In this document: positions 1-29,734 of the stretch, piece by piece
Layout of the letters: each line of letters begins with the position of its first letter
Numbering within the stretch: the first letter of the stretch is position 1
Assembly (NCBI GenBank): GCA_016873215.1
Contig: VGXU01000027.1
Span: 1-32,714, forward strand
Origin: Planctomycetota bacterium
Lineage (GTDB): Bacteria; Planctomycetota; Phycisphaerae; Sedimentisphaerales; Anaerohalosphaeraceae
DNA: 32,714 bases
Reading direction: 5' to 3'
Program-made: the position numbers and the translations under genes
The notes under the pieces: model-generated
Seen by the model: only the letters and a program-made list of their open reading frames with translations
Databases searched by the model: none
What the model was told of the DNA's origin: nothing

Positions 1-807
1 CGTCCGCTCTGGCCGCAGGGTATTGAAGCTCCCAAAGAGGCTGAGGCGGTTCCGGAAACCCTCGACTGGGACTTGTTCCTCGGCCCGGCCCCGCAGCGTC
101 CCTATCACCCGGCCTATCATCCCTGGATATGGCGTGGATGGTTAGATTTCGGCACCGGCTCACTGGGTGATATGGCGTGTCATATCCTGGACCCGGTCTT
201 CTGGTCGCTGAAATTGAAATATCCCACCAGTGTACAGGGAAGTTTTGCAGTGCCCGTTCCCCAGAGGGGGCTGCGTCTCACTGAGATTAAGGACTCCTAT
301 CCTTTGGCATCCACCATCCACTATGAGTTTCCGGCCCGTGAAGGGATGCCGGCAGTCAAGGTTCACTGGTATGACGGCGGCCTGCTTCCGGAACGGCCGG
401 AGGAACTGGAATTGAGTCGGCAGATGGGCGACGGCGGCAATGGTGTAATTTTTATCGGCGATAAAGGCAAACTGATGTGCGGCTGCTATGCGGCCAGCCC
501 GCAGTTAATTCCCTACGAGAAAATGAAAGCCTACAATAAACCCAAAGAGACGATACCTCGGATAAAAACCAGTCACGAGATGGATTGGGTGGCGGCGATC
601 AAGGAAGGACGCCAGCCCAGCTCTAATTTTGACTATTCCGGGCCGTTAACTGAAATGTGCGTCATGGGCAACTTATCCTTATTTTTCCCGGGGCAGAAAT
701 TACTTTGGGACGGCCAGAACATGAAAGTAACCAATGTTGAAGAAGCCAATGACTATATCAAATCCAAGTATCGGGATGGCTGGTATTTGGAAAAACCCAA
801 AGCTTAA
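1..807 (+). CDS. Gfo/Idh/MocA family oxidoreductase, C-terminal part (5' end outside window)
   Basis: The reading frame is open from the first base, so the N-terminal Rossmann (NAD(P)-binding) half lies upstream of the window and only about 268 residues are visible. What remains is the C-terminal alpha/beta substrate-binding domain. The stretch LDWDLFLGPAPQRPYHPAYH, then WRGWLDFGTGSLGDMACH and DPVFWSLKL, is characteristic of the Gfo/Idh/MocA subfamily common in planctomycetes and Bacteroidetes, where the conserved GD.ACH segment lies at the active site. The TTG at 73 is not the start. The family oxidises or reduces sugars and glycosides using NAD(P). The next gene begins 25 bp downstream and a second family member follows it, which points to a shared sugar pathway. 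Whether this copy is exported cannot be seen. Family assignment is firm; substrate unknown. Confidence 0.9.
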   Translation, partial: RPLWPQGIEAPKEAEAVPETLDWDLFLGPAPQRPYHPAYHPWIWRGWLDFGTGSLGDMACHILDPVFWSLKLKYPTSVQGSFAVPVPQRGLRLTEIKDSYPLASTIHYEFPAREGMPAVKVHWYDGGLLPERPEELELSRQMGDGGNGVIFIGDKGKLMCGCYAASPQLIPYEKMKAYNKPKETIPRIKTSHEMDWVAAIKEGRQPSSNFDYSGPLTEMCVMGNLSLFFPGQKLLWDGQNMKVTNVEEANDYIKSKYRDGWYLEKPKA

Positions 808-832
808 AAGCGGACAGAAAGCAGGGATAATT

Positions 833-2239
833 ATGAATAAAAAGAGATTGACATTTGTGATGGTTGTTTTATTATTAACGATAATGGCGTCGGCGGCGGA
901 ATTAACAATACACCCTCAAACAGACGTCTATGACGGCTGGAAACTCGGGATACAGGCGTGGTCGTTTAATCGTTTTACGCTGTTTGAGGCGATTGACAAG
1001 ACTCGGTCTTTGGGACTGGATTATATTCAGGCCTATCCGGGGCAGAAAATATCCCCGGAGATTTCTGACGGTTTTGGACCGGACTTGTCCGACCCGCTGC
1101 GGAAGGCCGTCAAGGAAAAACTGGCCGAGGCAAACCTTCAGGTTACTGCCTTCGGAGTAACGAAAATTGCAAGCGATGAGGCCGGTGCCCGTAAATTGTT
1201 TGAATTTGTCAAAGACATGGGGATTGGCACTCTCGTCTCTGAACCGGCCGAAGATCAGTATGAGTTGATCGACAAACTTTGCCAGGAATACCAGATCAAA
1301 CTGGCGATTCACAATCATCCCAAGCCAAGTCATTACTGGAATCCGGATACTGTATTGAAGGCCTGTGAAGGTCGAAGTAAGTGGATTGGAGCCTGTGTTG
1401 ATGTGGGGCATTGGGTTCGCAGCGGTCTGGATCCGGTGGAATGCCTCAAGAAATTGAAAGGTCGGATTCACGACGTGCATATCAAGGAAATTGATGACGG
1501 GCATGATGTCGTCTGGGGTACGGGGAAGGGACGCATAAAAGGGATACTGGAAGAACTCCATGGTCAGGGTTTTCAGGGGACATTTGCCATCGAATATGAA
1601 TATAACTGGGACAATAATATTCCGGAAATCCGTGAGTCCATCGCGTATTTTGATTCGCTCGCATCCGCATTGAAGCCGACCGGCTGGAAAGCGTTATTTA
1701 ATAGCGATTTGTCGAATGCCGAACTAAAAGAGAATAGCTGGGCAATGGAAGACGGCCAGTTGGCCCGAAAAGGCAAGGGAGATATCTGGACGAGGGATAA
1801 GTATTCTGATTTTATCCTGGATTTCGAATTCAAGCTTGCCGAAAAAACCAACAGCGGCGTCTTTCTGAGGGCGGCCGAACATACCTGGCTTCCCTGGGTC
1901 GAGATACAAATAGAGGATTCTTTCGGTAAACCGATTGGCAAACACATCTGCGGCAGTATCTACGATGTCAAGGAGCCGATGGTCAATACGGTCCGAAAGC
2001 CGGGTCAGTGGAACCGGATGACTATTTGCGCCAAGGGATCGGAAATAAAAACGGTATTGAATAATCAGCGGATTCTTGATATAAACCTAAATGACTGGAC
2101 CGAGGCGCATAAAAACCCGGATGGGACTGCAAACAAGTTTAATATTGCGTACAAAGATTTGCCTGGCGAAGGATGGCTTGGATTTCAGGACCATGGTTTC
2201 AGTATCTGGTATCGGAATATTAAAATTCAAAAGCTTTAA
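833..2239 (+). CDS. Secreted TIM-barrel sugar isomerase/epimerase-like protein fused to DUF1080 (3-keto-glycoside hydrolase-like) domain
   Basis: The protein has 468 residues from the ATG at 833; an upstream in-frame ATG at 734 would overlap the previous gene and place the signal peptide internally. Residues 1-22 form a Sec signal peptide. Residues about 35-285 form an AP-endonuclease-2/xylose-isomerase-like TIM barrel: GIQAWSF at the first strand, AIHNHPKPS, ACVDVGHW, IHDVHIKEID and FAIEYEYNW supply the usual His/Asp/Glu metal ligands. Residues about 290-468 match DUF1080 (concanavalin-like): GWKALFN, NSGVFLRA, PGQWNRM and a final IWYRNIKIQKL. DUF1080 proteins act on 3-keto-glycosides. In Bacteroides, separate TIM-barrel and DUF1080 proteins beside Gfo/Idh enzymes carry out elimination and hydration of 3-keto-glycosides; here both are on one chain, flanked by two Gfo/Idh enzymes. 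Domain calls are confident; the exact reaction is inferred. Confidence 0.88.
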   Translation: MNKKRLTFVMVVLLLTIMASAAELTIHPQTDVYDGWKLGIQAWSFNRFTLFEAIDKTRSLGLDYIQAYPGQKISPEISDGFGPDLSDPLRKAVKEKLAEANLQVTAFGVTKIASDEAGARKLFEFVKDMGIGTLVSEPAEDQYELIDKLCQEYQIKLAIHNHPKPSHYWNPDTVLKACEGRSKWIGACVDVGHWVRSGLDPVECLKKLKGRIHDVHIKEIDDGHDVVWGTGKGRIKGILEELHGQGFQGTFAIEYEYNWDNNIPEIRESIAYFDSLASALKPTGWKALFNSDLSNAELKENSWAMEDGQLARKGKGDIWTRDKYSDFILDFEFKLAEKTNSGVFLRAAEHTWLPWVEIQIEDSFGKPIGKHICGSIYDVKEPMVNTVRKPGQWNRMTICAKGSEIKTVLNNQRILDINLNDWTEAHKNPDGTANKFNIAYKDLPGEGWLGFQDHGFSIWYRNIKIQKL

Positions 2240-2260
2240 TCAGGTAAAGGATGTATTTTT

Positions 2261-3616
2261 ATGTTCAAAAAATTAAGTCGAAGGGAGTTTCTTCAGACCA
2301 CCGCGGCAATAGGCGCAGGATTGTATGTCAGCGGCAAGGCGCAGGGGGCCGATGCACCGGCCAAAGATGTAATTAATATAGCCCTGCTGGGAGCCGGCGC
2401 ACAGGGACAGGTCCTGATGGATGCGATTATCATGAAAAGAGACCCGGCCATTCGTTTTTTGGCCGTTTGCGACATCTGGGGCGTCAACCGTGACAAGGTA
2501 CAAAAACGCCTGAAGCGTTACAGCAAGTCCGGCTTTCGGGACACGGCCTATACGGATTACAAGGAAATGCTGGATACGGAAAAGGACCTGGATGCGGTCA
2601 TTGTCGCCACGCCGGATTTCTGGCATGCCGAGCATACGGTTGCCTGCCTGGAAAAAGGTCTGCATGTGTATTGCGAAAAAGAAATGAGCAATACCATTGA
2701 AGGCGCCAAAAAAATGGTCGAGGCTCAGAAAGCCAGCGGCAAGCAGCTTCAAATCGGTCACCAGCGCCGCAGCAATCCACGTTATCGGTACTGCTATGAC
2801 AAATTACTGCAGGATGCCCATATTCTTGGCCGTATCACCACCATCAACGGCCAGTGGAACCGCAGTAAGGACTCATGTCAAGACAATATTCTTCGGGAAG
2901 GAATGGCTCCTATTGAGGAAGCCATACTGAATAAATATGGTTTCAAGAATATGCAGCAGTTCCTCAACTGGCGATGGTATAAAGGACTCGGCGGCGGCCC
3001 GATTGTCGATCTGGGCAGTCACCAGATCGATATTTATTCCTGGTTTTTGGGCTGCAACCCGAAAAGCGTTATCGCCAGCGGCGGCGTGGATTACTGGAAA
3101 GACCATGAATGGTATGACAGCGTCATGGCCATTTATGAATATGAAACCAAAAACGGCCCGGTCCGTGCGTTTTACCAGACCCTGACAACCAACAGCGCCA
3201 ACGGCTACTTTGAATGCTTTATGGGTGATGAAGGGACGATGCTTATCTCTGAGGCATCCAATCGTGGCAGTGTGTATCGTGAGGGCTGGGTCCAAGAGGC
3301 CAAGTGGGACCCGTGGGTAGCCAAAGGATATATCGAAAAGGCAAAAGGCACAAAAGTCGCCGAGGACAAAGACAAAGAAGCGGTGCTGGATGTACGCGAA
3401 AGCATCCCCGCTGCGGAATATAAATTGACGGTGGAACTGACCGATCCTTATCATCAGCCGCATTTGATGAATTTCTTTAACGCGATTCGAGGAACCGAAA
3501 AACTCAATTGTCCGGCCCAGGTTGGCTATGAAACGGCCGTGACCGTGTTGAAAGTCAATGAAGCCGTCAGCAAGGCGACTCGTTTAGATTTCAAGGAAGA
3601 GGAATATAAAGTTTGA
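2261..3616 (+). CDS. Tat-exported Gfo/Idh/MocA family oxidoreductase
   Basis: The protein has 451 residues. The N-terminus SRREFLQTTAAIGAG is a Tat signal, so the enzyme is probably folded with its cofactor in the cytoplasm and then exported. The Rossmann fold begins near residue 37 with NIALLGAGAQGQ (dinucleotide-binding loop), followed by AVCDIWG and VIVATPDFWHA. The usual EKP motif appears as CEKEMS, a variant seen in this exported subfamily. The C-terminal domain contains QIGHQRRSNPRY and GGGPIVDLGSHQIDIYSWF. Exported members such as glucose-fructose oxidoreductase keep NAD(P) tightly bound. It lies 21 bp after the TIM-barrel/DUF1080 gene and 7 bp before the multihaem cytochrome, so it is almost certainly co-transcribed with both. 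The likely role is oxidation or reduction of a glycoside outside the cytoplasm; the substrate and electron acceptor are unknown. Confidence 0.93.
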   Translation: MFKKLSRREFLQTTAAIGAGLYVSGKAQGADAPAKDVINIALLGAGAQGQVLMDAIIMKRDPAIRFLAVCDIWGVNRDKVQKRLKRYSKSGFRDTAYTDYKEMLDTEKDLDAVIVATPDFWHAEHTVACLEKGLHVYCEKEMSNTIEGAKKMVEAQKASGKQLQIGHQRRSNPRYRYCYDKLLQDAHILGRITTINGQWNRSKDSCQDNILREGMAPIEEAILNKYGFKNMQQFLNWRWYKGLGGGPIVDLGSHQIDIYSWFLGCNPKSVIASGGVDYWKDHEWYDSVMAIYEYETKNGPVRAFYQTLTTNSANGYFECFMGDEGTMLISEASNRGSVYREGWVQEAKWDPWVAKGYIEKAKGTKVAEDKDKEAVLDVRESIPAAEYKLTVELTDPYHQPHLMNFFNAIRGTEKLNCPAQVGYETAVTVLKVNEAVSKATRLDFKEEEYKV

Positions 3617-3623
3617 TTCAGGG

Positions 3624-5459
3624 ATGAACGTGCCGTTGAAAAGAATAACATTCATACTGCTCTTATGGCTGGTACTGCCTGCGGTTCGTGCCCAGTCGGT
3701 CGAAGAAACCGAACTGATTGGGGAAGGCAACGACGGCAATTGCAGCACTCCCGTACATCGTTTTGAGCTTTACGACGAAAAAGGTGTGCGAATTCGAGCC
3801 AATGACAAAAAACCACAGCCGTTTTCGATTGAGAAGACCTGCGGCAAATGTCACGACTATCAAAAAATCGCAAAGGGCTGGCATTTTAACGGCCATGACC
3901 CGGAGGTCGAATCCGGCAGGTCAGGTCAGCCCTGGGTATTGATGGATTCAAAGACACGCACCCAGATACCAATCACTTCCCGAAAATGGCAGGGGGCATA
4001 TCCCCCTGAGCAACTGGGTATTACTCCGTGGGCGTTTCTGAAAACTTTTTACAGTCACTTTCCCGGCGGCAGCTATGGCCAGATGGATGCCCAGGATCCT
4101 GACGAGGCTATTCGTCAGGAAATCAGCGGAAAGTATGAAATCAATTGCTTAGCCTGCCATCACAACAGTCCCCAGGAAGACCAGAGTCTGGCCGCATTGC
4201 AATCGGCCCGGCAGAATTATCGCTGGATTCCCACAGCCTCCAGCGGCAAAGGGGTAGTTGAAGGGGTTGCACTGAGCTTGGATGATTATTTCGACCCGGC
4301 AGTCGATGAAGGCATCAAAGTCACTTACAACCAGGGCGTTCTCGACAAGGATGACATGGCCTTTTTTGATATTGCCTTGCCCGCCAATGAACGATGTTAT
4401 TTCTGTCATTCCAACCGGGACCTTCGCGTGGATGAAAACAGCGAATGGACGCAGGACCAGGATGTTCACCTGCAATCCGGTTTGAACTGTATCGATTGCC
4501 ATCGCAACGGCGACGACCACATGATGACACGCGGCATGGAAACTCAGGGAAGCGGCAAATCGCTGACTTGTGAAGGATGCCACTTGGGTAATGCTGCCGA
4601 TCTTTCAGAATCGAATCGTCTGGGTGCGCCCAACCCCAGGCATCTGGGCATTCCCACCATTCATTTTGAAAAGCTGACCTGTACGGCCTGTCATAGCGGC
4701 ACTGTCCCCGAGGACACCGCCGGACGCTGGAAAACATCCAGAATGCACAAAACCGGCCTTCACGGAAAACACAATCTCGACATTGCCCAGCCGCACCTTT
4801 ATGCCCCGGTCTTGATGAAAGGTGCCGACGGTAAAATCGGCCCCTATAAGATGTTCTGGCCCGCATTCTGGGGAATTCTGGCCGATGATAAAGTCACACC
4901 GATGGCTCCGGCCAATGTGCTTAAGAAGGCAGCGAAAATTTTAGAGGCGGACGTTCAAAAAGAGGATGACTGGCGTCCCCTGACCGAAGAGCAGATTCGC
5001 AATGTCCTGCTGGCTTTGAAAAAAGATGATGTAGGAGCAGTTTATATCGCAGGCGGAAAGCTTTACCAGCTTGATGCTGAAGACAAAATCATCAGCACTG
5101 AGCATAAAGCCGCTCAACCTTATGCATGGCCCTTAGCCCATGATGTCCGCCCGGCCAATCAATCTCTCGGCGTTCGAAATTGCAAGGATTGTCACACGGT
5201 CGATTCACCGTTTTTCTTCGGCAAAGTAGGGGTGGACACCCCTGTAAAAGCAGCCGGCGGGACAGCCTATATGGAAATGGTCCAACTGCAGGGAATCGAC
5301 CGGCTCTATATGTGGGTCTTCAATTTCACATTTGTTTTCCGGCCGTTTTTAAAGGTGATCGCTCTGGCGTCCTGCGCCCTGATTGGAATTGTGGTACTGG
5401 CTTATGTGCTTAAGGCGACCGCGGCCATCTCCAACGCCTGTGCCGAGGAGGACAAATAA
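3624..5459 (+). CDS. Seven-haem cytochrome c with C-terminal membrane anchor
   Basis: The protein has 611 residues, with a Sec signal peptide (about 1-23) and seven CxxCH haem-binding motifs at Cys73 (CGKCH), Cys175 (CLACH), Cys258 (CYFCH), Cys289 (CIDCH), Cys316 (CEGCH), Cys353 (CTACH) and Cys520 (CKDCH). Many extra His residues, e.g. HFNGH near 87-91, could be distal ligands. One transmembrane helix at about 567-597 places the haem domain on the outer face of the cytoplasmic membrane, with a short cytoplasmic tail. Motifs 3-6 are clustered; the 160-residue gap before motif 7 may hold a separate domain. I do not recognise a named enzyme family. The stop codon directly precedes the ATG of the cytochrome b-like gene, indicating a stoichiometric partner, probably for electron exchange with quinones. 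Maturation would need the ccsA/ccsB pair at 12213-14013. Confidence 0.93.
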   Translation: MNVPLKRITFILLLWLVLPAVRAQSVEETELIGEGNDGNCSTPVHRFELYDEKGVRIRANDKKPQPFSIEKTCGKCHDYQKIAKGWHFNGHDPEVESGRSGQPWVLMDSKTRTQIPITSRKWQGAYPPEQLGITPWAFLKTFYSHFPGGSYGQMDAQDPDEAIRQEISGKYEINCLACHHNSPQEDQSLAALQSARQNYRWIPTASSGKGVVEGVALSLDDYFDPAVDEGIKVTYNQGVLDKDDMAFFDIALPANERCYFCHSNRDLRVDENSEWTQDQDVHLQSGLNCIDCHRNGDDHMMTRGMETQGSGKSLTCEGCHLGNAADLSESNRLGAPNPRHLGIPTIHFEKLTCTACHSGTVPEDTAGRWKTSRMHKTGLHGKHNLDIAQPHLYAPVLMKGADGKIGPYKMFWPAFWGILADDKVTPMAPANVLKKAAKILEADVQKEDDWRPLTEEQIRNVLLALKKDDVGAVYIAGGKLYQLDAEDKIISTEHKAAQPYAWPLAHDVRPANQSLGVRNCKDCHTVDSPFFFGKVGVDTPVKAAGGTAYMEMVQLQGIDRLYMWVFNFTFVFRPFLKVIALASCALIGIVVLAYVLKATAAISNACAEEDK

Positions 5460-6128
5460 ATGTTCAGATGGGCTGCAATCATCAGTTTTGGAGTGATTTT
5501 TGCGGGACTCCTTTTGCATCATCTGCTGTTTCCCTGCGGTTACAAGCCGCGGTTTTCACCCGGTTCGCTGATTCGCAAAAAAGTGCATTTGTTTATCCTG
5601 CTGTTCCCGGAACAGAAACTCAGTTTGCCGGGAAAGATAAGAAAATTTATTTTCCTGCTGGGACTCTTGAGTTTTGTCGTATTGCTGCTGACCGGGTTTA
5701 CGCCACTCATGTTAGGCTCCAGACTTGCAGGCTACTGGCTGATCATCCATGCCACATTTGCTCCGGTTTTTATTGGTTGTACGGCCCTGTTGGCTTTGCT
5801 GGGGGCCGGCCAATATCGTTTTAATAAAGAAGACCTCGAAACGGTTGGATTGGGCTGCACAAGCAGCAAAATCGACGGCTGTCGGTTAACGGATATCGGC
5901 ATCGGCGCGAAAGCAGGGTTCTGGCTGTTACTGATATTATCCCTGCCGGTAACGTTAACGATGGTTTTAAGTATGTTTCCGTTGTTTGGAACACACTATC
6001 AGGAACTGTTTTATCACCTGCACCGCTGGTGCGGACTTGTTTTCGCCTGGATAGCAATTGTTGAACTCTACATCCTGATACGGATGGGAATTCTTGAGGA
6101 TACCAAAAAGAAGTCACATCAATTTTAG
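5460..6128 (+). CDS. Five-TM cytochrome b-like membrane protein, partner of the multihaem cytochrome
   Basis: The protein has 222 residues and about five hydrophobic helices (roughly 4-24, 61-80, 92-116, 151-173, 189-208). His97 in IHATFAPVF and His186/His188 in FYHLHRWCGLVFAW lie near the ends of helices 3 and 5, a spacing suited to a bis-His haem b as in cytochrome b561-type or formate-dehydrogenase gamma-type subunits. The ATG follows the stop codon of the 7-haem cytochrome gene with no gap, so translation is probably coupled and the two likely form one complex. The expected role is moving electrons between the quinone pool and the exported cytochrome; direction unknown. The protein is too divergent to name. 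An alternative is a haem-free membrane anchor. Confidence 0.72.
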   Translation: MFRWAAIISFGVIFAGLLLHHLLFPCGYKPRFSPGSLIRKKVHLFILLFPEQKLSLPGKIRKFIFLLGLLSFVVLLLTGFTPLMLGSRLAGYWLIIHATFAPVFIGCTALLALLGAGQYRFNKEDLETVGLGCTSSKIDGCRLTDIGIGAKAGFWLLLILSLPVTLTMVLSMFPLFGTHYQELFYHLHRWCGLVFAWIAIVELYILIRMGILEDTKKKSHQF

Positions 6129-6144
6129 CCAGGAGGATTAAACT

Positions 6145-7509
6145 ATGGCAAACGTATCATTACCGAATTATCTCATCGCGGCAAACACAAATTCGGCGGC
6201 CAATCGTGGACCTTGGTACAAAAACACGGCCCCGGCGTATGCGGGAATTTTCCTGTCCGTGCCGTTTATGGCGGGCATGGCTGGGGGGCTTGCTTACGGC
6301 AGTATCAGCGCGACGATCATCGGACTTGTGATGGGGGCGCTGTTCTGCCTGATGATTTACTATGTCCCGGCTAAACTGGGAATGCAGACAGGGATGCCTT
6401 TATATGTCGTGGCATCGTCAACCTTTGGCGCCGTCGGAGGAATCGCCATCCCGGGCTTTTTAATGGGTATTGTTCAGATATTCTGGCACGCAGTGTTTAC
6501 GACTTCAGCGGCAGGCTTTTTTATGGAAGCCATCGGCAAGGTGCCGGCAGACAATCAAGCCCTGTATTGGGTCGTCTGTGCGGTATGGGGGTTGAGCATG
6601 GCCTTTGTGGGAGCGATTGGTATTGGTCTGCTGGCAAAGCTTTCGTCGTGGCTGCCTATTTTCCCGCTGGTATTTATAGCGATTGCGGCAATTGCCAATA
6701 AAGACGGATTGGCTAATTTCAGTACCAATGTCGTCGTAGCCCAGGGCGTTATTGGTGTTGCGATGTCATTGGCGATGTTTGCAGCGCTGCAATCCACAGC
6801 GGGTTTTTTTGCTTCCGCGGGTGTGGCCGGGGCTGATTTCGGCATGAACAGCAAAAATGAAAAAGATGTTGCCCTTGGCGGTTTCTTCGGAGTCACCGTA
6901 GCTGCAATCGTCGCCGGTCTGCTGGCGATTCTGGCAATCGCCGGCGCAGCCGGTAAAAATCCGCAAATCGCCGCCCAAATCTCCGGCGGCAAAGCCTTTG
7001 ACGCTTTCTTTGCCTCAATTGCCCAGACAGGCAGTTTGGCAAAATTATCCGCCTGGGTATTTGTTATCTCCTGTATTTGCCCGACAGGATTCTGTGCGTT
7101 TCTGGCGTCCAATGCGTTTGCAACCATGCTGCCCAAACTGCCGCGAGTCCCAATGACATTGGCGGCAGGTCTGATTGGTGTAATTCTTGCCGCAACTGGA
7201 ATTGCCAATAATCTTATCAGCTTCTTTCTGATGGTTGGCGCTGCGTTTGGTCCGATCGCGGGAGTGATGCTGGCTGATTATATCCGCAGCGGCGGATGGA
7301 AAGGTCCCCGCAAGGGCATCAACTGGGCGGGCTATATCGCATGGGCCTTCGGCCTGGTCCTTGGTTTGCTTGGTGTGATTACGAAAAATAAGTTCGGGTA
7401 TGGCCTTGAAGCACTGATACCGATGGTGGCGGCAGCAGCGGCTTACTTTGCACTGGCCGGTTTTGGATTAGAGTCTGAAACGATTTTGCTTGAAAAAAAG
7501 AATGTGTAA
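6145..7509 (+). CDS. NCS1-type (cytosine/purine/allantoin-like) permease
   Basis: The protein has 454 residues, nearly all hydrophobic, with about twelve predicted transmembrane helices, the usual size and topology of nucleobase:cation symporter-1 proteins such as CodB. The region around RGPWYKNTAPAYAGIFLSVP, then ASSTFGAVGGIAIPGF and VQIFWHAVF, follows the pattern of the family's first three helices. Near the C-terminus, ADYIRSGGWKGP resembles the conserved ADY segment after helix 10. An excellent ribosome binding site (AGGAGG at 6131-6136) decides the ATG at 6145. It lies 16 bp after the cytochrome b-like gene, an unusual place for a nucleobase importer. NCS1 members carry pyrimidines, purines, hydantoins, thiamine and related ring compounds; the substrate cannot be read from sequence. 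Assignment to the superfamily is likely, to NCS1 moderately so. Confidence 0.75.
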   Translation: MANVSLPNYLIAANTNSAANRGPWYKNTAPAYAGIFLSVPFMAGMAGGLAYGSISATIIGLVMGALFCLMIYYVPAKLGMQTGMPLYVVASSTFGAVGGIAIPGFLMGIVQIFWHAVFTTSAAGFFMEAIGKVPADNQALYWVVCAVWGLSMAFVGAIGIGLLAKLSSWLPIFPLVFIAIAAIANKDGLANFSTNVVVAQGVIGVAMSLAMFAALQSTAGFFASAGVAGADFGMNSKNEKDVALGGFFGVTVAAIVAGLLAILAIAGAAGKNPQIAAQISGGKAFDAFFASIAQTGSLAKLSAWVFVISCICPTGFCAFLASNAFATMLPKLPRVPMTLAAGLIGVILAATGIANNLISFFLMVGAAFGPIAGVMLADYIRSGGWKGPRKGINWAGYIAWAFGLVLGLLGVITKNKFGYGLEALIPMVAAAAAYFALAGFGLESETILLEKKNV

Positions 7510-7573
7510 CCACAAAATAGAGTGTCCATCTGTACTATTATTGACAATACTATGAATCAGGAGATATGAAAAT

Positions 7574-8344
7574 ATGACAAACAGAATTATTTTAGTCATG
7601 ACCGTGCTGGCTGCTCTGGCGTTTAGCGGCTGTGCAAAGAAACAACCTGTTGACCAGCAGCCTGCGGCACCGGCCGAATCCAAACCTGCTGCACAGGCTC
7701 CCGTTGCTCAGGAACCCAAGCCGGCTGAAGCCTCGTCTGCCAAAGCCGACGTAAAACTCGAACCGATACCCCTGGTTCTTCCCAAGCCCATGTTTGTGGG
7801 AACCCCCGAAAACTTAGGGAACATCGAAAATCTGGAACCGGATATCAAGATGTCCCGGCCGCAGTTTCTTGCCCCCGCGGGAGTCAAGAACCTTGCCCTG
7901 AATAAACCTGTCACCGGCTCAGAAGCAGAGCCGATCACAGGTACATTGTCGATGATTGTCGACGGTGACAAGGAAGCAACCGAAGGCAGCGTGGTTGAAT
8001 TAGGCCCGTTTAAGCAATGGATACAAGTAGATCTCGGCTCGGAGCATGAGTTGTATGCCATCGTCTTCTGGCATTTCCACAAAACACCCCGTGTGTATTT
8101 TGACGTGGTCGTACAGGTTTCCAATGATGCTGAATTCATCACGGGCGTAACAACCCTGTTTAACAATGACGTGGATAATTCTCTCGGTCTGGGCGTTGGA
8201 ACAGATAAGCATTACATCGACAAAGCCGAAGGCAAACTGGTGGATGCCAAAGGGACCAAAGCACGTTATGTCCGGTTGTATAGCCAGGGTAACAACCAGA
8301 ACGATTACAGCCACTATATCGAGGTTGAAGTATTTGGCAAATAG
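7574..8344 (+). CDS. Lipoprotein with discoidin (F5/8 type C)-like domain
   Basis: The protein has 256 residues. The N-terminus is a lipoprotein signal ending in LAFSGC, with lipidated Cys20. A Pro/Ala/Lys-rich linker (about 22-60) follows, rich in QPAAPAESKPAA-type sequence. Residues about 105-256 look like a discoidin/galactose-binding jelly roll: NLALNKPVTGS opening, IVDGDKEATEGS, KQWIQVDLGSEHELYAIVFW, then KARYVRLYSQ and HYIEVEVFGK at the end. Such domains bind glycans or other surface ligands. It starts 64 bp after the permease with a good AGGAG site and ends 3 bp before the Agl23-ApbE fusion, so it belongs to the operon. It may anchor the envelope complex to a surface or substrate; this is inference. 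Confidence 0.83.
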   Translation: MTNRIILVMTVLAALAFSGCAKKQPVDQQPAAPAESKPAAQAPVAQEPKPAEASSAKADVKLEPIPLVLPKPMFVGTPENLGNIENLEPDIKMSRPQFLAPAGVKNLALNKPVTGSEAEPITGTLSMIVDGDKEATEGSVVELGPFKQWIQVDLGSEHELYAIVFWHFHKTPRVYFDVVVQVSNDAEFITGVTTLFNNDVDNSLGLGVGTDKHYIDKAEGKLVDAKGTKARYVRLYSQGNNQNDYSHYIEVEVFGK

Positions 8345-8347
8345 CCG

Positions 8348-10852
8348 ATGAGAAGCCGTTTCACATGGATTCTGTTATGGATAACGGTACTTGCGGGAGG
8401 GTCGTTTTTTCGCTTATGGCGATTAAACGACCGTCCCATGCATACCGATGAAGCGGTTCACGCAGAAAAGTTTTCCGCTCTTCTCGAAAAGGGATCTTAT
8501 ACATACGACGCCAGCGAATTTCACGGGCCGACGCTGAATTACTTTACGCTGGTCAGCGCCTTTCTGCGGGGCGAAAAAAGCCATGAGCAGATCAATGAAA
8601 CAACCCTGCGGATTATTCCGGCATTCTTCGGGATAGCGCTGACTTTAACCCCGCTGTTTTTCATCAAGGCATTTGGCCGCCGGACTGCAATATTCAGCTG
8701 CATCCTGATTGCTTTTTCGCCTGCGTTTGTCTATTACAGTCGGTATTACATCCAGGAAACGCTGCTGGTCTTTTTTACGGCGGCTTCTTTAGGCTCTGGC
8801 TGGATGTACTTTCAGACTCGCAAAATCAGCTGGATTATCCTGGCCGGTATCGCAGCCGGCCTGATGCATGCAAGCAAGGAAACGTTTATTTTCTCAGTCT
8901 TTGCGGCCTTCCTGGCATTGATATTCTGCTATTTTAACTACAAGTCTTTTAAGCCGATAAAGGTACTGCCTATTTTAGCCGCAGTTGCCGCAATGACAGT
9001 CACATCCATCCTGTTTTATTCTTCCTTTGGAACCAATCCGGGAGGAATCATCGATTCTGTGAGCACCTATGGGAGTTGGTTCCAACGTGCCTCCGGCCAA
9101 AGTACCCATATTCACCCCTGGTATTACTATCTGGACCTGCTGACGTGGCTGGAAATCTTTGAACCCATTACCTGGAATGAAGATATTATCATAGCATTGG
9201 CGGCCGCGGGTTTGATTTTGGCTTTGTTTCGACAGACAACAAGTTCGGTTTTCATGCGATTTTTTGCGATTTATACCCTGGCTTTAACGATAATTTACTC
9301 TGTAATCCCTTATAAAACCCCATGGTGTGTACTGAGTTTCCTCTATGGAATGGCGATTCTGGCCGGGTGGATTATTGATCGGATGATGGATGTTTTACAG
9401 GCTCGCTGGGAAAAGATTTGTGCCTGCCTGTTCATTCTTGTTTTCGTAATAGCAAGCCCTGCTGCTCAATGCTGGTTTTTGAATTTTAAATATACTTCAA
9501 ATCCCGTCAATCCCTATGTTTATGCCCATACATCGATGGATGTATTTCAAATGATCGAGGCGGTTAACAAGGCGGCACTCGCTTCCGATAAAGGTCAGGA
9601 TTTGCCGGTCTATGTGATTGCCTCCGACAGCGATTACTGGCCTTTGCCGTGGTATTTGCGAAACTTTAAGCAAGTTGGGTATTGGTCCCAAATTGACCCG
9701 TCTGTCTGCAATACACCGATTATTCTGGCAAATGCCAAACTGGAACAGGAACTGCTTGGTGTTTTGTATTCTGTTCCCAGGCCGGGCCAAAAGAATCTCT
9801 ACGTTCCTCTGTTTGAAAAGAAACTTCAACTGCGTCCCGGAGTCGAGTGGGGTGGATATATCCGCCAGGACCTGTGGGACCGGATGAACACCGCGGATCC
9901 GGCAGAAAAGGAAAATGAGCAATTGGGGGTTAATCCATTGGACAAAAAACAAATTGAAAATCTCGTGCATTTCAGTCATACGGCCATGAATACTACGTTT
10001 GAGGTATATATTCAGGACACGCGGGGGACCTATGCCGGACAGGCCGCACGCGCTGCTTTCAAGGAAGTGGACAGATTAGAGAGTTTGCTGAGCCGCTTTA
10101 TTCAAAACAGTGATATCGGACGGATTAATGCGGTTAAACCGAACCAGGAGATAATCATTGACCCGGATACATTTAAATGTCTGCAAGTTGCCGGACAAGC
10201 CTGGCAGTTGACCGACGGGGCCTTCGATGTGACCCTTGGCAATATCATCGCCGCATGGAAGAGCGGCGACTCTCAGAAGGCTCTTTTTCTCCAGGCTAAT
10301 CGGCCCAGTATGAAAATGCTTGAGCTGAATTCGGATGGCTTGAGTGTTATGGTAACCGACAGGGGGGTAAATCTTGATCTGGGAGGAATCGCAAAAGGAT
10401 ATGCGGTCGATAAAATTGCGGAGGTATTGCACGAGTGGGGTATCGATAAAGCCCTGATCCATGGTGGAGCCAGTTCTGTTTGTGCCTTAAAAAAACCGCT
10501 GGGAAAAAATGGCTGGCCGGTCACGCTGACTAATCCAACAAATCAGCAAATACTTGCACGACTCGAACTGGAAGAGGAAGTATTCAGTTGCTCAGGAATC
10601 GAGGCCGGGCGTCATATTATTAATCCCCTTACCGGCCAACCCGTCACAGACAGAAAAGCCTGCTGGATTCGTCTCAAAGAAAATGCGGCCCTGGCGGATG
10701 CTCTGACGACCGCCGGAATGATCATGCCTCTTGAGAAAATCCATAACTTGCCTGTCAGGATTCCCGGCATGTCCCTGATGCTATTGATGACTTCAGGGAA
10801 TACCCAGACTGAAGAAACACTGAAAGTAGGCGATTGGTCCGACAAAAAATAA
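8348..10852 (+). CDS. Fusion: Agl23-like GT-C membrane protein plus ApbE FAD:protein FMN transferase domain
   Basis: The protein has 834 residues. Residues 1 to about 520 form a polytopic membrane protein of the TIGR03663/Agl23-like type: MHTDEAVHAEKF (Asp34-Glu35, the GT-C acidic pair) and EFHGPTLNYFTL are family hallmarks, with about ten further hydrophobic helices. Residues about 545-834 are an ApbE domain: AMNTTFEVYI, LSRFIQNSDIGRIN, DLGGIAKGYAVDK (near 677), HIINPLTGQPV (near 755; the usual HIIDP Asp is Asn) and ALADALTTAGMI (near 779, Mg site). ApbE moves FMN from FAD onto a Thr/Ser of exported redox proteins. No clear flavinylation motif (Asp-x-x-Ser/Thr-Gly-Ala-Thr/Ser) was found in neighbouring proteins. 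It is the last gene of the operon, converging with the GT2 gene with one base between stop codons. No sign of a sequencing artefact at the junction. Confidence 0.87.
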   Translation: MRSRFTWILLWITVLAGGSFFRLWRLNDRPMHTDEAVHAEKFSALLEKGSYTYDASEFHGPTLNYFTLVSAFLRGEKSHEQINETTLRIIPAFFGIALTLTPLFFIKAFGRRTAIFSCILIAFSPAFVYYSRYYIQETLLVFFTAASLGSGWMYFQTRKISWIILAGIAAGLMHASKETFIFSVFAAFLALIFCYFNYKSFKPIKVLPILAAVAAMTVTSILFYSSFGTNPGGIIDSVSTYGSWFQRASGQSTHIHPWYYYLDLLTWLEIFEPITWNEDIIIALAAAGLILALFRQTTSSVFMRFFAIYTLALTIIYSVIPYKTPWCVLSFLYGMAILAGWIIDRMMDVLQARWEKICACLFILVFVIASPAAQCWFLNFKYTSNPVNPYVYAHTSMDVFQMIEAVNKAALASDKGQDLPVYVIASDSDYWPLPWYLRNFKQVGYWSQIDPSVCNTPIILANAKLEQELLGVLYSVPRPGQKNLYVPLFEKKLQLRPGVEWGGYIRQDLWDRMNTADPAEKENEQLGVNPLDKKQIENLVHFSHTAMNTTFEVYIQDTRGTYAGQAARAAFKEVDRLESLLSRFIQNSDIGRINAVKPNQEIIIDPDTFKCLQVAGQAWQLTDGAFDVTLGNIIAAWKSGDSQKALFLQANRPSMKMLELNSDGLSVMVTDRGVNLDLGGIAKGYAVDKIAEVLHEWGIDKALIHGGASSVCALKKPLGKNGWPVTLTNPTNQQILARLELEEEVFSCSGIEAGRHIINPLTGQPVTDRKACWIRLKENAALADALTTAGMIMPLEKIHNLPVRIPGMSLMLLMTSGNTQTEETLKVGDWSDKK

Positions 10853-10853
10853 A

Positions 10854-11597
10854 TTATGGCGTATTGTCGGCAAGGAATTTTCCAAAGCGTTTTTTCAATC
10901 GGACCAAATCTCTGAACACACGCCAGGATTCATGCAGCGGCTTAAGACGGCTGTCCGGATCGCATCGCCAGTTTACGGGAAACTCGAGGATATTGTACCC
11001 TTGGGACAACGCCAGTAAAATAATCTCAACATCAAACATAAATCCGTCAATTTGGCTGCTTGAGTACAATTCTCGTGCGATATCGCCCCGATAGACTTTA
11101 AATCCGCATTGGGTATCGGTCAGGTTGCCAACCCGCTTGATATCATGGATCAGGAACCAGTGGAAAATTTTCGAACAAACCTGTCGGTAAAGTGGTTGAG
11201 GCTGCAGAATAGAACCGTTGGCTAATTTCCTCGAGCCGTGTGCGATTTGGCATCGTCCGGAGGAAATCAAATTGACTCCCAATTGAATCTCCTCATAAGG
11301 TACACAGCAGCCGCTGTCGGAAAAAGCAACAAAGTCACCCCGACTTTTCAATATCCCGGTTCGTACCGCAAATCCTTTACCGCGATGTTCTTTCAGGGAT
11401 TCAATGACGCATTCAGCTTGTATTGTTTGGGCGACTTTTTCAGCTATTTTCGCTGTGTCATCTTTACTGCCGTCGTCAACGAGGATAATTTCCCCGGCCA
11501 GGCCTTCAGAAGTTAAAAATTGATCCGCGGCCAGAATGTCTCGGCTGATTTTGTTTTGTTCATTAAAAACCGGAATCACAATTGAAAGTTTTGACAT
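10854..11597 (-). CDS. GT2 glycosyltransferase, dolichyl/polyprenyl-phosphate glucosyltransferase-like
   Basis: The protein has 247 residues, is soluble and is a GT-A family 2 enzyme resembling Alg5/AglJ-type polyprenyl-phosphate sugar synthases. Visible motifs are IVIPVFNEQNKI at the N-terminus, LVDDGSKDDT (nucleotide-sugar-binding Asp residues), HRGKGFAVRTGIL and QCGFKVYRGDIAREL. The metal-binding D-x-D region reads FSDSGCCVP, a departure from the usual DADLSTP. WRCDPDSRLKPLHESWRVF near the C-terminus is typical of the family. Such enzymes charge a membrane lipid phosphate with a sugar that GT-C enzymes then use; the convergent neighbour is an Agl23-like GT-C protein, which fits a donor/acceptor pair. 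It appears monocistronic, with GAAGGG upstream of the ATG. Confidence 0.9.
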   Translation of the reverse strand: MSKLSIVIPVFNEQNKISRDILAADQFLTSEGLAGEIILVDDGSKDDTAKIAEKVAQTIQAECVIESLKEHRGKGFAVRTGILKSRGDFVAFSDSGCCVPYEEIQLGVNLISSGRCQIAHGSRKLANGSILQPQPLYRQVCSKIFHWFLIHDIKRVGNLTDTQCGFKVYRGDIARELYSSSQIDGFMFDVEIILLALSQGYNILEFPVNWRCDPDSRLKPLHESWRVFRDLVRLKKRFGKFLADNTP

Positions 11598-12212: not shown

Positions 12213-13001
12213 CTAAGTAGCATAGCTGTGAAGTCCATGAAAAAGCCGAGAAAGGTTTACCCATAGCAGGGTTATCAGAATCAGAACCAATCCCAAAATG
12301 ACCCAAATACTATTGATACGGGAATATTTTATACCATACATACTGCGAAAATGGAAATATCCCACATAAAAAAGCCAGGAAGCCAGAGACCATAATTCCT
12401 TCGGATCCCAGCCCCAGAAATCACCCCAGGCACATTGCCCCCAGTAGCTGCCCAATATCAGTCCAAGAGTCAGCAGGGGAAAACCCGCGCAAACCATTTT
12501 GTAAGCAGCTATTTCCTGGTGCACTATAGCTTGATGGGTATTCTTGACAGTAGTCAAGTGAGCAAAGGCCCAAAAGGCCGCCTTGGACATAAAAATATAG
12601 GAGAGCATATAGGCTGCTACATGCGGAGCAAACAACCAGCTTTGCAATGCCGGAGGAAGCTGTTGTGGTTCGGATTTAAAAACAAAGCCCGCCGGGAAAA
12701 GAACGATGACGCCAATAAGCATGTCGGCGGCGTATCCCCCAACACGAAGGATTTTGTCGCAAAATAATGAGACAGGATAGAGCATTCCCAGACAAAGAAA
12801 TACTTCAAAAAGATTTTGCATAGGAATGTGATTAACGTGATGCCATCGGTACGCAAAGGAACACAATGCTGCAATAAATCCAATCACATATAAATTAAGG
12901 CCGGTCTTACGATATTTGATTAGAGTGAAAAAGAAGGCCAGAATATAAATAGCCATCGACACATAAATGAGAAGGCCCTGAGCTGTATATTTAATTTCCA
13001 T
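12213..13001 (-). CDS. ccsA: System II cytochrome c biogenesis protein CcsA (CcmC/CcmF/CcsA haem handling family)
   Basis: The protein has 262 residues and about eight hydrophobic helices. The signature tryptophan-rich (WWD) motif is present at about 187-204, reading WGQCAWGDFWGWDPKELW. Candidate haem-coordinating histidines are His54/His55/His58, His127 in FAPHVAAYM and His258 in the terminal FHGLHSYAT. CcsA (also ResC) forms, with CcsB/ResB, the complex that carries haem across the membrane and ligates it to CxxCH motifs of exported apocytochromes. Its ATG overlaps the end of the upstream resB-like gene by 11 bp, so the two are translationally coupled. The obvious client in this window is the 7-haem cytochrome at 3624-5459. 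Confidence 0.92.
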   Translation of the reverse strand: MEIKYTAQGLLIYVSMAIYILAFFFTLIKYRKTGLNLYVIGFIAALCSFAYRWHHVNHIPMQNLFEVFLCLGMLYPVSLFCDKILRVGGYAADMLIGVIVLFPAGFVFKSEPQQLPPALQSWLFAPHVAAYMLSYIFMSKAAFWAFAHLTTVKNTHQAIVHQEIAAYKMVCAGFPLLTLGLILGSYWGQCAWGDFWGWDPKELWSLASWLFYVGYFHFRSMYGIKYSRINSIWVILGLVLILITLLWVNLSRLFHGLHSYAT

Positions 13002-14013
13002 ATAAGTGTTTCTCTTTTGTTTTGAATAAAGAACTGAGCCAGAAATGCCAGAATACGCCTGCTACGAGCATCAGATAGCCTGAATAGACAATGGATAGAC
13101 CGCTGTCGGAGACAACAGAAAGAATGCTGAATTGATAGCCTTGTTCGTCATACGACTGTTGGTAAAAGTAATAGCCTCCATAGTGAAGCGGGTGGTTGAC
13201 CTCAATATTTTTCCGTGCGACCGTGTTCCTATTTTCGACAATCGCAATATCGCTTATAAAATCTCGAATGGCGCCTGTGCAGGACAGCAGAAATTTATCC
13301 TGCGGGTGCGAATGACCACCGAAATTTTCAAAGACGTATTGATTGATTGTCTCGCCGGTGAGATATTCTATCTGGACTTCGATGGCCGGATTATATCCCG
13401 GTTCGTTTGAATCAATGATTTTTCTGATGTTGTTATCCAAGATGATCCTGAAATTCTGGAACTTTCTTAATATTTTAACCTTTCCAAATACGCTTCCCAA
13501 ATCGAATTCAGTATTTAACTCGATTGGAAATTTCCACAGTTGGCCCTGTCGAGTCTGGATTTGAAGAAACTTTGGTTCATAATATTCTATTCTGAACTCA
13601 TTCAGTTTTATTGAAAAAGGAAGCTGGCCTATCCGGCCGTCCCGGCCCAGTACGACCTGGCTGGTCTCCTGACCCTGGCCAATGAGCATCTGTCCTCTAT
13701 GTATCTTATCAATCTGAAAGAATTTTCTTTGAAATAGATGTCCGGTTTGTGAGCCGTACATGGCACCTGCAAGAATCAGGATGCAGCCCAGATGAATCAG
13801 CAACAGGCCGAAATTTCTGGCGGATTTTAGAAAAATGAACAGTCTGGCTGAAAGCATGATGAGCAATACAAACCAGGGTGTCGACATCGATGGCGAGTTG
13901 AAAAATTCCTGCGCTCTGTCAGCACCAAGAAACGCCCCGTAAATGCAGAATAAAATCAACGTGAAAATAAATATCAGAACAATCAGCATCTGAGTCTGAT
14001 GGAATTTTATCAT
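12991..14013 (-). CDS. resB: System II cytochrome c biogenesis protein CcsB/ResB-like
   Basis: The protein has 340 residues, with hydrophobic helices at about 8-28, 45-63, 68-88 and 311-332 and a large extracytoplasmic domain between the last two. The third helix contains LLLIHLGC, with a His expected as a haem ligand. Near residue 290, VNHPLHYGGYYFYQQSYDEQ is the most conserved stretch of the ResB family. ResB holds and presents the apocytochrome while CcsA delivers haem. It is shorter than typical ResB (over 400 residues) but has all four helices and the conserved periplasmic segment. It overlaps ccsA by 11 bp and is first in the two-gene operon. Confidence 0.87.
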   Translation of the reverse strand: MIKFHQTQMLIVLIFIFTLILFCIYGAFLGADRAQEFFNSPSMSTPWFVLLIMLSARLFIFLKSARNFGLLLIHLGCILILAGAMYGSQTGHLFQRKFFQIDKIHRGQMLIGQGQETSQVVLGRDGRIGQLPFSIKLNEFRIEYYEPKFLQIQTRQGQLWKFPIELNTEFDLGSVFGKVKILRKFQNFRIILDNNIRKIIDSNEPGYNPAIEVQIEYLTGETINQYVFENFGGHSHPQDKFLLSCTGAIRDFISDIAIVENRNTVARKNIEVNHPLHYGGYYFYQQSYDEQGYQFSILSVVSDSGLSIVYSGYLMLVAGVFWHFWLSSLFKTKEKHLYGN

Positions 14014-14456: not shown

Positions 14457-14498
14457 ATGAACAGATATGTTTTTTGAATCTTTCATATGGAAATACTT

Positions 14499-16499
14499 AT
14501 GCAACAACCTTTTACATTATTGATTAAACCCGCGGGTCCTGACTGTAATATCGCGTGCAGGTACTGTTTTTATGCATGCAAGAGCGAAATGTTCGGAGAC
14601 GGTGCGCACCGCATGAGCGAAGGAACATTGGAGTGTCTTGTGAAAAGCTATCTGGATTTGCGTTTTCCGATGAACAGCTTTGCCTGGCAGGGGGGTGAGC
14701 CGACGCTGATGGGAGTTGATTTTTACAAGCAGGCAGTCCGGCTGCAGCAGCAGTATGGGGCAGGGGGCCAGATCGTCAGTAATGCCTTTCAAACGAACGG
14801 GATTCTGCTGAATGATACATGGGCTGAATTTCTGGCAGAATATAAGTTTCTGTGCGGGATCAGTCTGGATGGACCTCAGGAATTTCACGATTATTACCGA
14901 AAAGACCGTGCAGGCAAGGGTACCTATGACCGGGTTCTGGCGGGGATTGAATGCTGCCGTCGGCACGGGGTAGAGTTTAATATCCTGGTGCTTCTCAATA
15001 ACCGGAATGTAGATTATCCGGATGAACTTTTTGATTTTTTCACATCTAAAGATCTGCTGTATTTACAATTTGTGCCGTGTGTGGAGCCGAATCCGGCTAA
15101 TCCGAAGCAGCCGGCAGAATACAGTATCACGCCGGAACAATACGGACGATTTTTATGTCGTTTTTTTAACCGATGGCAGGATGGTTGGACCCGGAAACTG
15201 AGCGTGCGGATTTTTGACAGCATGCTGTCGTATCTGCTGGGCAGACCTCATACGGAGTGCACATTCGGGCGGCAATGCAATGATTATATCGTGATTGAGC
15301 ATAATGGAGACGCCTACTGCTGTGATTTTTATGTCACGGACCAGACACGGCTGGGCAATATTCTCGATACGCCGATTGAGCAACTCGCCTCGCACCCGGT
15401 CAAGCAGGCATTTTCAAGCAGGAAGACTGAACTTGCGGATAAGTGCCTGGCCTGTCAGTATCTGGATATCTGCCGGGGCGGATGTCCGAAAGACCGGGCC
15501 ATGCTGACCGGAACGCATATGGCATCGAGTTATTTTTGTGAGGGGTATAAGATGTTTTTCGACCATGCTCTTGGTCATCTGCGAGGACTGGCCCAGGAGG
15601 TTCAGAAGCAGCACAATGAACGTACTGTGACCAAGTCGCTCTATATCAACGGAGAAGAAGTAGAAGGTGTCTTCATTCAGGCCGAGATAAATCGTTTACG
15701 TCCTCAATATCAGCAAGTCTTTGCAGATCAGCCGAAGGAGGAGCAGGAGAAACAATTGGCCGAATGGGCGCGGGAAAATATTATTGAGGCAACCCTGTTT
15801 CGACAGCAAGCCCGAAAATATTTTCCGCAGATTACTCCACAGGAAATCCAAAACACTCTTCAACAGTTGCTTGGTCAAGAAAGGCCGTATGGTCCTTTAC
15901 ATCAGCGACTCCAGGCCGGTACTCAAGAGCAGCAAAAGCTGCACGATGAAATTGCTGACCGAATTCGGCATGAAAGACTGCAATCTCAGATTGCCAGAAC
16001 AATCCCTCAACCCTCAGAAAAAGAGATCCGCAAGTATTATAACCAGCATCTGGCTGACCGATTTACGGTTTCGGAGATGGTGCATGCCGCACATATCGTT
16101 AAGCATCCGAATGCCGACAACTCCAAAGAACAGCTGTACCGGCAGATGTGCGAAATCAAGGAAAAACTCGATCAGGGTGTTCCGTTCGAGGAACTGGCCA
16201 AGGAGAATTCTGACTGCCCGGACAGCGGCGGTGATCTTGGATTTTTTGCGCGCGGCAAGATGGTTCCGGCTTTTGAAGAGGTTGTATTTAGTCTCAAACC
16301 TGGTTCATATAGTGATATTTTTGAGACTGAATTCGGCTGGCATATCGCTAAAGTCATTAAGAAGTGTCTCCCTGTTCCCTGTTCCCTGGAACAGGTACGA
16401 GAAGTCATTGTCCAGGATTTAGCTCAGCAGGCACAAGAAAGAGCACTCGAGCAGTTTCTCGACGCTCAAAAAGAAAAGGCCCATATCGAAGAACGATAA
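14499..16499 (+). CDS. Anaerobic sulfatase maturase (radical SAM/SPASM) fused to SurA-like and PpiC parvulin domains
   Basis: The protein has 666 residues from the ATG at 14499, chosen because GGAAA precedes it at suitable spacing; the in-frame ATG at 14487 has no ribosome binding site. Residues about 5-370 are an anSME: the radical SAM motif CNIACRYCFYAC (CxxxCxxC), FAWQGGEPTLMG, GISLDGPQEFHDYYR, and SPASM cysteines in CTFGRQCNDY, KCLACQYLDICRGGCPKDR and YFCEGYKMFF. It would convert the active-site Cys of sulfatases to formylglycine without oxygen. After residue 385 a helical, charged SurA_N-like segment leads to a parvulin domain (about 525-620) with HAAHIVKHP, FEELAKENSDCPDSGGDLGF, PAFEEVVFSLKPG and FGWHIAKVIKK. 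No signal peptide, so the foldase part is cytoplasmic. A Cys-type sulfatase lies at 22219. Confidence 0.9.
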   Translation: MQQPFTLLIKPAGPDCNIACRYCFYACKSEMFGDGAHRMSEGTLECLVKSYLDLRFPMNSFAWQGGEPTLMGVDFYKQAVRLQQQYGAGGQIVSNAFQTNGILLNDTWAEFLAEYKFLCGISLDGPQEFHDYYRKDRAGKGTYDRVLAGIECCRRHGVEFNILVLLNNRNVDYPDELFDFFTSKDLLYLQFVPCVEPNPANPKQPAEYSITPEQYGRFLCRFFNRWQDGWTRKLSVRIFDSMLSYLLGRPHTECTFGRQCNDYIVIEHNGDAYCCDFYVTDQTRLGNILDTPIEQLASHPVKQAFSSRKTELADKCLACQYLDICRGGCPKDRAMLTGTHMASSYFCEGYKMFFDHALGHLRGLAQEVQKQHNERTVTKSLYINGEEVEGVFIQAEINRLRPQYQQVFADQPKEEQEKQLAEWARENIIEATLFRQQARKYFPQITPQEIQNTLQQLLGQERPYGPLHQRLQAGTQEQQKLHDEIADRIRHERLQSQIARTIPQPSEKEIRKYYNQHLADRFTVSEMVHAAHIVKHPNADNSKEQLYRQMCEIKEKLDQGVPFEELAKENSDCPDSGGDLGFFARGKMVPAFEEVVFSLKPGSYSDIFETEFGWHIAKVIKKCLPVPCSLEQVREVIVQDLAQQAQERALEQFLDAQKEKAHIEER

Positions 16500-26801: not shown

Positions 26802-26867
26802 TTCCTGCGTAAAAACCTATTTATATTCTCTTGTCGGTATGGTTTGGGTCAATGGAATATCGCCGCG
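26802..26867. repeat. 66-bp duplicated tail module, copy 2
   Basis: This is the counterpart of 25145-25210, covering the last 17 codons and the immediate 3' flank of the beta-helix/xylosidase gene. It aligns without gaps apart from scattered substitutions. Confidence 0.85.
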
Positions 26868-29609: not shown

Positions 29610-29734
29610 TGTTTTGCCTTTCGTTCCAGAGTATATACTTTTCAAAACATGGCGTTATTATACATTGCCCCCTTAAAACGTCACTAAAATAGTGAAAAAT
29701 AGTTGTAATTACCTATTCTTTAAGTCTCACGGAA

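Follow-up and report, generated by a model that had tools for sequence, protein, structure and literature searches.

A gene cluster at the start of a 32,714-nucleotide contig from a member of the Planctomycetota (class Phycisphaerae, order Sedimentisphaerales, family Anaerohalosphaeraceae; GenBank assembly GCA_016873215.1, contig VGXU01000027.1) places a predicted exported sugar dehydrogenase directly before two membrane-associated cytochromes, and its conservation suggests an undescribed route, present in several phyla and even in planctomycetes regarded as purely fermentative, by which sugars oxidised outside the cytoplasm could deliver electrons to the membrane. The proteins concerned are GfoTat, a Gfo/Idh/MocA protein with a twin-arginine translocation (Tat) signal, CYT7, a heptahaem cytochrome c, and CYTB, a cytochrome b, which are encoded by genes 3 to 5 of an apparent eight-gene operon (Table 1). 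The source window, by which we mean the whole stretch analysed, is the entire contig (C27) of a genome of 2.69 Mb in 123 contigs.

About 20 kb around CYT7 was read in 80 stretches of relatives, in most of which GfoTat lies directly upstream of CYT7. A scan of GTDB contigs returned 307 encoded relatives. The best 80 of the 307 carry organism names and are the named loci of this text; being the closest, these 80 are a biased sample. GfoTat is directly upstream of CYT7 in 76 of these 80, the other four being cut at the contig start, and the median gap between the two genes is 29 bp. The named loci come from Phycisphaerae, other Planctomycetota, Verrucomicrobia, Omnitrophota, Caldithrix/Calditrichota and KSB1, with further examples in bins labelled Deferribacteres and Bacteroidetes. 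Among long loci, those with 7 kb present on both sides of CYT7, GfoTat is directly upstream in 26/28 from the order of the window, 9/17 from other orders of the class and 10/10 from outside the phylum. The original prediction, made from the window alone, had proposed conserved synteny between the sugar genes and the cytochromes as its own check, and a gene for a predicted sugar-oxidising enzyme does indeed precede the cytochromes across several phyla.

The two genes also occur together at the level of whole genomes. CYT7 was found in 60 of 98 relatives and, within a set of 298 class genomes, in 71; the same set has GfoTat in 74 genomes and both genes in 66, leaving five with CYT7 alone and eight with GfoTat alone (Fisher p 1e-50, with no correction for relatedness). 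In at least eight genomes the two genes are both present but widely separated or split between contigs (G041, with the pair at 1.00 and 3.16 Mb of one contig, and G137, G193, G247, G254, G286, G300 and G308). Since several genomes thus retain both genes unlinked, we infer a functional link that goes beyond the inheritance of gene order. Chance, or a local operon accident, is ruled out by the cross-phylum synteny together with the co-occurrence.

GfoTat matches PF01408 (67.8 bits), PF02894 (46.1) and PF22725 (46.7) above the curated cut-offs, and its Tat signal scores 17.7 with TIGR01409 (cut-off 16.7). With NF058561, the profile for the BT_2158 glycoside 3-dehydrogenase, it reaches 73 bits, under the cut-off of 750. 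In a tree of 292 Gfo/Idh proteins taken from these loci, 99 of the 100 CYT7-adjacent proteins fall within a single clade of 120 members (support 99). The Tat motif RRxF is found in 114 of these 120, at least four of the remaining six being truncated or mis-started, and it is invariant within the aligned GfoTat set. A second hallmark of the clade is that CEKE replaces the usual EKP motif in 116 of the 120 proteins (CEKM stands there in one, and in three no CEK motif was found), and CEKE is listed for none of the other Gfo/Idh proteins of the tree. The alignment shows that GfoTat retains the GxGxxG loop and the catalytic K140, D250 and H254; judged from these sequences, the missing EKP is a clade-specific departure in which the catalytic lysine is kept, and membership of the Gfo/Idh superfamily stands. 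The predicted model (predicted local distance difference test score, pLDDT, 88) has a Gfo/Idh fold, and its nearest structures are levoglucosan dehydrogenase, glucuronide-3-dehydrogenase, DgpA and glucose-fructose oxidoreductase (GFOR), with the nicotinamide adenine dinucleotide (NAD)-dependent glycosidases 8qc2-8qc8 also among its structural neighbours.

Across 22 diverse CYT7 sequences the seven CxxCH motifs and seven further histidines (H45, 87, 282, 299, 340, 347 and 506) are invariant, and a C-terminal helix accompanies them; five of the 80 named loci have six CxxCH motifs and the other 75 have all seven. All seven haems are likely to have bis-His ligation, which would suit CYT7 to carrying electrons and not to acting as a reductase. 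Two histidines, H97 and H188, are conserved in CYTB, and a match to Ni_hydr_CYTB (PF01292) at E <= 0.01 was obtained for 11 of 18 CYTB homologues (best 2.9e-14), the window copy being unmatched. In over a dozen loci of other lineages CYT7 and CYTB form a single open reading frame (ORF), and because both are encoded there as one protein there is good evidence, at the level of sequence, that the two form one complex.

The CYT7 model gave zero significant matches in Foldseek, and a second structural look returned 1sp3, an octahaem tetrathionate reductase, with a Z score of 8.2 over 306 residues. Assignment to that family was rejected, as CYT7 has seven CxxCH motifs rather than eight and scores 18.2 bits with TIGR04315 against a cut-off of 375. 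Orthology with MmcA was likewise rejected on the 36.1 bits of the homologue in locus L123 against a TIGR04314 cut-off of 250; for the window CYT7 no match to TIGR04314 was listed up to E 0.01. Among CYT7 homologues, some match the two profiles weakly (36/250 bits for TIGR04314 and 18-25/375 for TIGR04315). Distant seven-haem relatives of CYT7 (27-28% identity, family f41) occur without GfoTat in the same phylum (L238 and L240, in genomes G347 and G533), and in L226 6980-10537 (G083) the position expected for CYT7 behind GfoTat is taken by another cytochrome, of 370 aa and with eight haems, which ApbE follows.

Comparison of the loci separates a core, consisting of GfoTat, CYT7, CYTB, the discoidin lipoprotein, Agl23 and ApbE, from variable parts, namely the BT2158-like gene, the TIM/DUF1080 gene and the permease. 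The 28 long loci of the order contain CYTB in 28 cases, the discoidin lipoprotein in 25, Agl23 in 24, ApbE in 24 and GT2 in 11, and Agl23 and ApbE are separate genes in most relatives. A TIM-DUF1080 gene lies near CYT7 in 30/43 cases within the order, 8/24 in other orders of the class and 1/14 outside the phylum, and the permease slot is filled in relatives by NCS1, MFS or another permease. From these counts it follows that gene 3 goes with the cytochromes and that genes 1 and 2 are lineage-specific additions. The original prediction had drawn the boundary after gene 3, setting three sugar genes against a cytochrome module; that boundary has to be moved, with genes 1 and 2 attached mainly in the order of the window, while the sugar-pathway identity it gave to those two genes agrees with their BT_2158 and DUF1080 matches.

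We consider it an even call that the core is a periplasmic sugar-oxidation module in which electrons would pass from GfoTat to CYT7, then to CYTB and the membrane. GfoTat would bind its nicotinamide cofactor while folding in the cytoplasm and, after Tat export, would reduce the bound NAD by oxidising a substrate of pyranoside type, C3 being the most likely position. Membrane-anchored CYT7 would reoxidise this cofactor and pass the electrons to CYTB, probably of b561 type, and on to the quinone pool. In the order of the window, the BT2158-like dehydrogenase and the TIM/DUF1080 enzyme may complete 3-keto-glycoside cleavage, with the exchangeable permease importing the products; accessory roles could be substrate binding for the discoidin lipoprotein, glycosylation for Agl23 and GT2, and flavin loading for ApbE. 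A similar anatomy, in which a multihaem cytochrome c and then a cytochrome b relay electrons to quinone, is found in periplasmic hydrogenases and formate dehydrogenases, and it is the nicotinamide enzyme that is the unusual part of the scheme. A bolder version, which we put forward tentatively and think more doubtful than not, is that GfoTat is the first known nicotinamide periplasmic dehydrogenase to feed a dedicated wire (CYT7, cytochrome b, quinone), possibly via an ApbE-installed flavin, so that planctomycetes called 'strictly fermentative', like members of several other phyla, would respire sugars at the membrane surface.

Several observations weigh against this proposal. Direct transfer from NADH to haem is normally slow, a flavin being the natural two-to-one-electron step, and no fusion of GfoTat with CYT7 was seen in the loci examined. 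The [S/T]GA[S/T] flavinylation motif, as defined in the available text of PMC8238504, is not conserved in any protein family of the locus, and no flavin bridge was found in the core. The ApbE domain of gene 8 matches PF02424 with 159.8 bits; flavinylation of a core protein by ApbE was considered and rejected, as the candidate residue, T136 of the discoidin lipoprotein, is not conserved, and a second ApbE on contig C1 excludes gene 8 as the sole flavin transferase of the genome, whose two FMN_bind proteins sit in gene sets that read as Nqr and Rnf. On present evidence the place given to ApbE in the electron path by the original prediction is thus not borne out, and with ApbE in the core yet no flavinylation motif in the families of the locus, a flavin step is at most a possible part of the scheme. 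Eight genomes of the class have GfoTat without CYT7, and two of these (loci L227 and L230, in G088 and G009) keep GfoTat, NCS1, the discoidin lipoprotein, Agl23 and ApbE with no CYT7 or CYTB nearby. The futalosine-pathway menaquinone enzymes MqnA and MqnD were not found in the genome, so that quinone is a putative end point. Finally, the available text of one survey (PMC11266412) calls the order strictly fermentative, with the respiratory chain missing, so that a conserved cytochrome module is unexpected here.

The same eight genomes, together with four loci (L078, L112, L116 and L119) in which CYT7, CYTB and the discoidin lipoprotein stand away from GfoTat, would fit an arrangement in which the two halves are co-regulated and electronically separate, CYT7-CYTB being a quinol-linked reductase or an extracellular electron outlet for a fermenter growing on glycosides while GfoTat recycles its own cofactor. 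CYT7 also has as many haems as the MmcA family and, like it, a single helix (MmcA as described in the available text of PMC6703419). Most genomes with unlinked genes nevertheless retain both, and CYT7 pairs with one specific Gfo/Idh clade and not with the dozens of other Gfo/Idh proteins, and we regard such a separation as rather unlikely. An identical gene anatomy would equally serve electrons running in reverse, with quinol oxidised by CYTB and CYT7 feeding GfoTat, which would reduce a periplasmic 3-keto-sugar or similar carbonyl and so make a sugar derivative the terminal acceptor. A gene set that reads as Nqr could supply the quinol, and CYT7 is distantly like MmcA and the octahaem reductases. 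Menaquinol, or another hydroquinone, is however generally a weak donor for the carbonyl of a secondary alcohol, making this direction thermodynamically less likely, and the sugar genes found with the module suggest that oxidation is the first step; we judge reverse flow improbable.

It might also be supposed that GfoTat is redox-neutral, as are GH109, the oxidoreductive sulfoquinovosidases and GFOR, and that the cytochromes work for another enzyme or do no more than rescue GfoTat molecules stuck in the reduced state. The original prediction saw in the cytochromes a means of recycling the cofactor, which is plausible, but a redox-neutral enzyme of the GFOR kind needs no such recycling, and both the retained K140, D250 and H254 and the presence of 8qc2-8qc8 and GFOR among the structural neighbours are compatible with such chemistry. 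The change from EKP to EKE is nonetheless confined to the cytochrome-linked clade, and no reason is known for an enzyme of this kind to be paired so constantly, in one phylum after another, with two cytochromes of its own, which leaves this explanation very unlikely in our view.

The features of the locus are collected in Table 1. ORFs, translations and profile matches bear out the original description of eight codirectional genes, their families and the successive gaps of 25, 21, 7, 0, 16, 64 and 3 bp, the first of which presumes an ATG at 833 (the gene 2 ORF is open back to 734). Nor is there a sign of a transcript break near 3616, in keeping with the same prediction: the terminator signal at 3616-3624 is not above shuffles, and the gene spacing shows no gap there beyond the 7 bp given. 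That description was silent on the contig end, which cuts gene 1; the C-terminal half that is present scores 307 bits with NF058561 (profile 186-446/487; cut-off 750) and matches PDB 8tdf/8tdh with E 3e-75. Contig C95 carries, in order, ThuA-HEAT, DUF1080 and, at its end, a second BT2158-like gene (L250 3334-4709) with 83% DNA identity to window 1-581. Because same-genus relatives (L051 and L053) have two BT2158-like genes in tandem, C95 may carry the genes that precede gene 1 in this operon, and the contig break likely falls at this tandem repeat.

Table 1. Position, strand and assignment of the features discussed in the window.
Feature	Position	Strand	Assignment
Gene 1, GfoA	1..807	+	BT_2158-family glycoside 3-dehydrogenase (probable); last 268 aa, gene cut at its 5' end by the contig edge
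Gene 2	833..2239	+	AP_endonuc_2 TIM barrel + 3keto-disac_hyd (DUF1080) fusion, Sec signal
Gene 3, GfoTat	2261..3616	+	Gfo/Idh/MocA, Tat-exported, with CEKE; belongs with the cytochromes in the core
Gene 4, CYT7	3624..5459	+	Heptahaem cytochrome c, C-terminal transmembrane helix
Gene 5, CYTB	5460..6128	+	Membrane cytochrome b, probably b561/Ni-hydrogenase type
Gene 6	6145..7509	+	NCS1-type permease (Transp_cyt_pur)
Gene 7	7574..8344	+	F5/8 type C (discoidin) lipoprotein; part of the conserved core
Gene 8	8348..10852	+	Agl23 GT-C glycosyltransferase (TIGR03663) fused to ApbE flavin transferase
GT2	10854..11597	-	Polyprenyl-phosphate-type glycosyltransferase; convergent neighbour, often kept with the core
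CcsA	12213..13001	-	Cytochrome c assembly protein (PF01578)
ResB/CcsB	12991..14013	-	Cytochrome c assembly protein

The CcsA gene, the only one (PF01578) found in the genome, lies with ResB beside it 1.4 kb past the operon, and CcsA and ResB matches are also present near CYT7 in the more distant relative L078. Apart from short contig tails, no other ORF with at least two CxxCH motifs was found in contigs C28-C58, and no other same-strand CxxCH cluster in the listed part of C1-C27 (the scan takes in C60 and otherwise stops before C59). Elsewhere in the window, a 670-aa protein at 14487-16499 (+) combines a radical SAM/SPASM half with a SurA-like PpiC rotamase half, and a 942-aa ORF with a TTG start at 26817-29645 (-) has zero Pfam matches.

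If electrons do flow from GfoTat to the membrane, this would explain how a sugar dehydrogenase that is exported with its cofactor bound can be reoxidised beyond the cytoplasm, and organisms described as fermentative and without a respiratory chain would have a path that takes electrons from glycosides to their membrane. Several phyla have the module, and so do complete genomes of the order, which makes the proposal testable in cultured relatives.

In agreement with the original view that the layout is without described precedent, no description of a module joining Gfo/Idh, a multihaem cytochrome and a cytochrome b was found in the available texts of a mostly non-subscription literature, which is weak evidence of absence. 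The Zymomonas GFOR, like GfoTat, is a Tat-exported Gfo/Idh, and the model of GfoTat has the same fold. GFOR acts on two sugars and recycles its own cofactor, without cytochromes. Genes 1 and 2 resemble the Bacteroides oxidation/elimination/hydration pathway in their matches to BT_2158_fam and DUF1080 enzymes, whereas gene 3 belongs to a different Gfo/Idh clade. We know of no dedicated cytochrome pair described for the Bacteroides pathway. BT2158 itself, a glycoside 3-dehydrogenase, is periplasmic according to the available text of PMC11300592. As in the ApbE flavinylation-based extracytosolic electron transfer clusters, ApbE here adjoins a cytochrome b of the membrane together with redox proteins outside the cytosol, but unlike those clusters the locus lacks an [S/T]GA[S/T] substrate; the available texts of two surveys of such clusters do not mention a Gfo/Idh link. 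CYT7 shares seven haems and a single helix with Methanosarcina MmcA (TIGR04314; available text of PMC6703419) and a distant fold likeness with the Shewanella octahaem tetrathionate reductase (1sp3, TIGR04315), which has eight haems rather than seven, and the partner genes differ in both cases. In Rhizobium radiobacter a flavin adenine dinucleotide (FAD)-dependent glucoside 3-dehydrogenase oxidises glycosides at C3 with a haem c protein as acceptor (PMC9915066, in its available text); that system couples a flavoenzyme to a mono-haem cytochrome, whereas the locus described here sets a nicotinamide Gfo/Idh beside a heptahaem cytochrome c and a cytochrome b.

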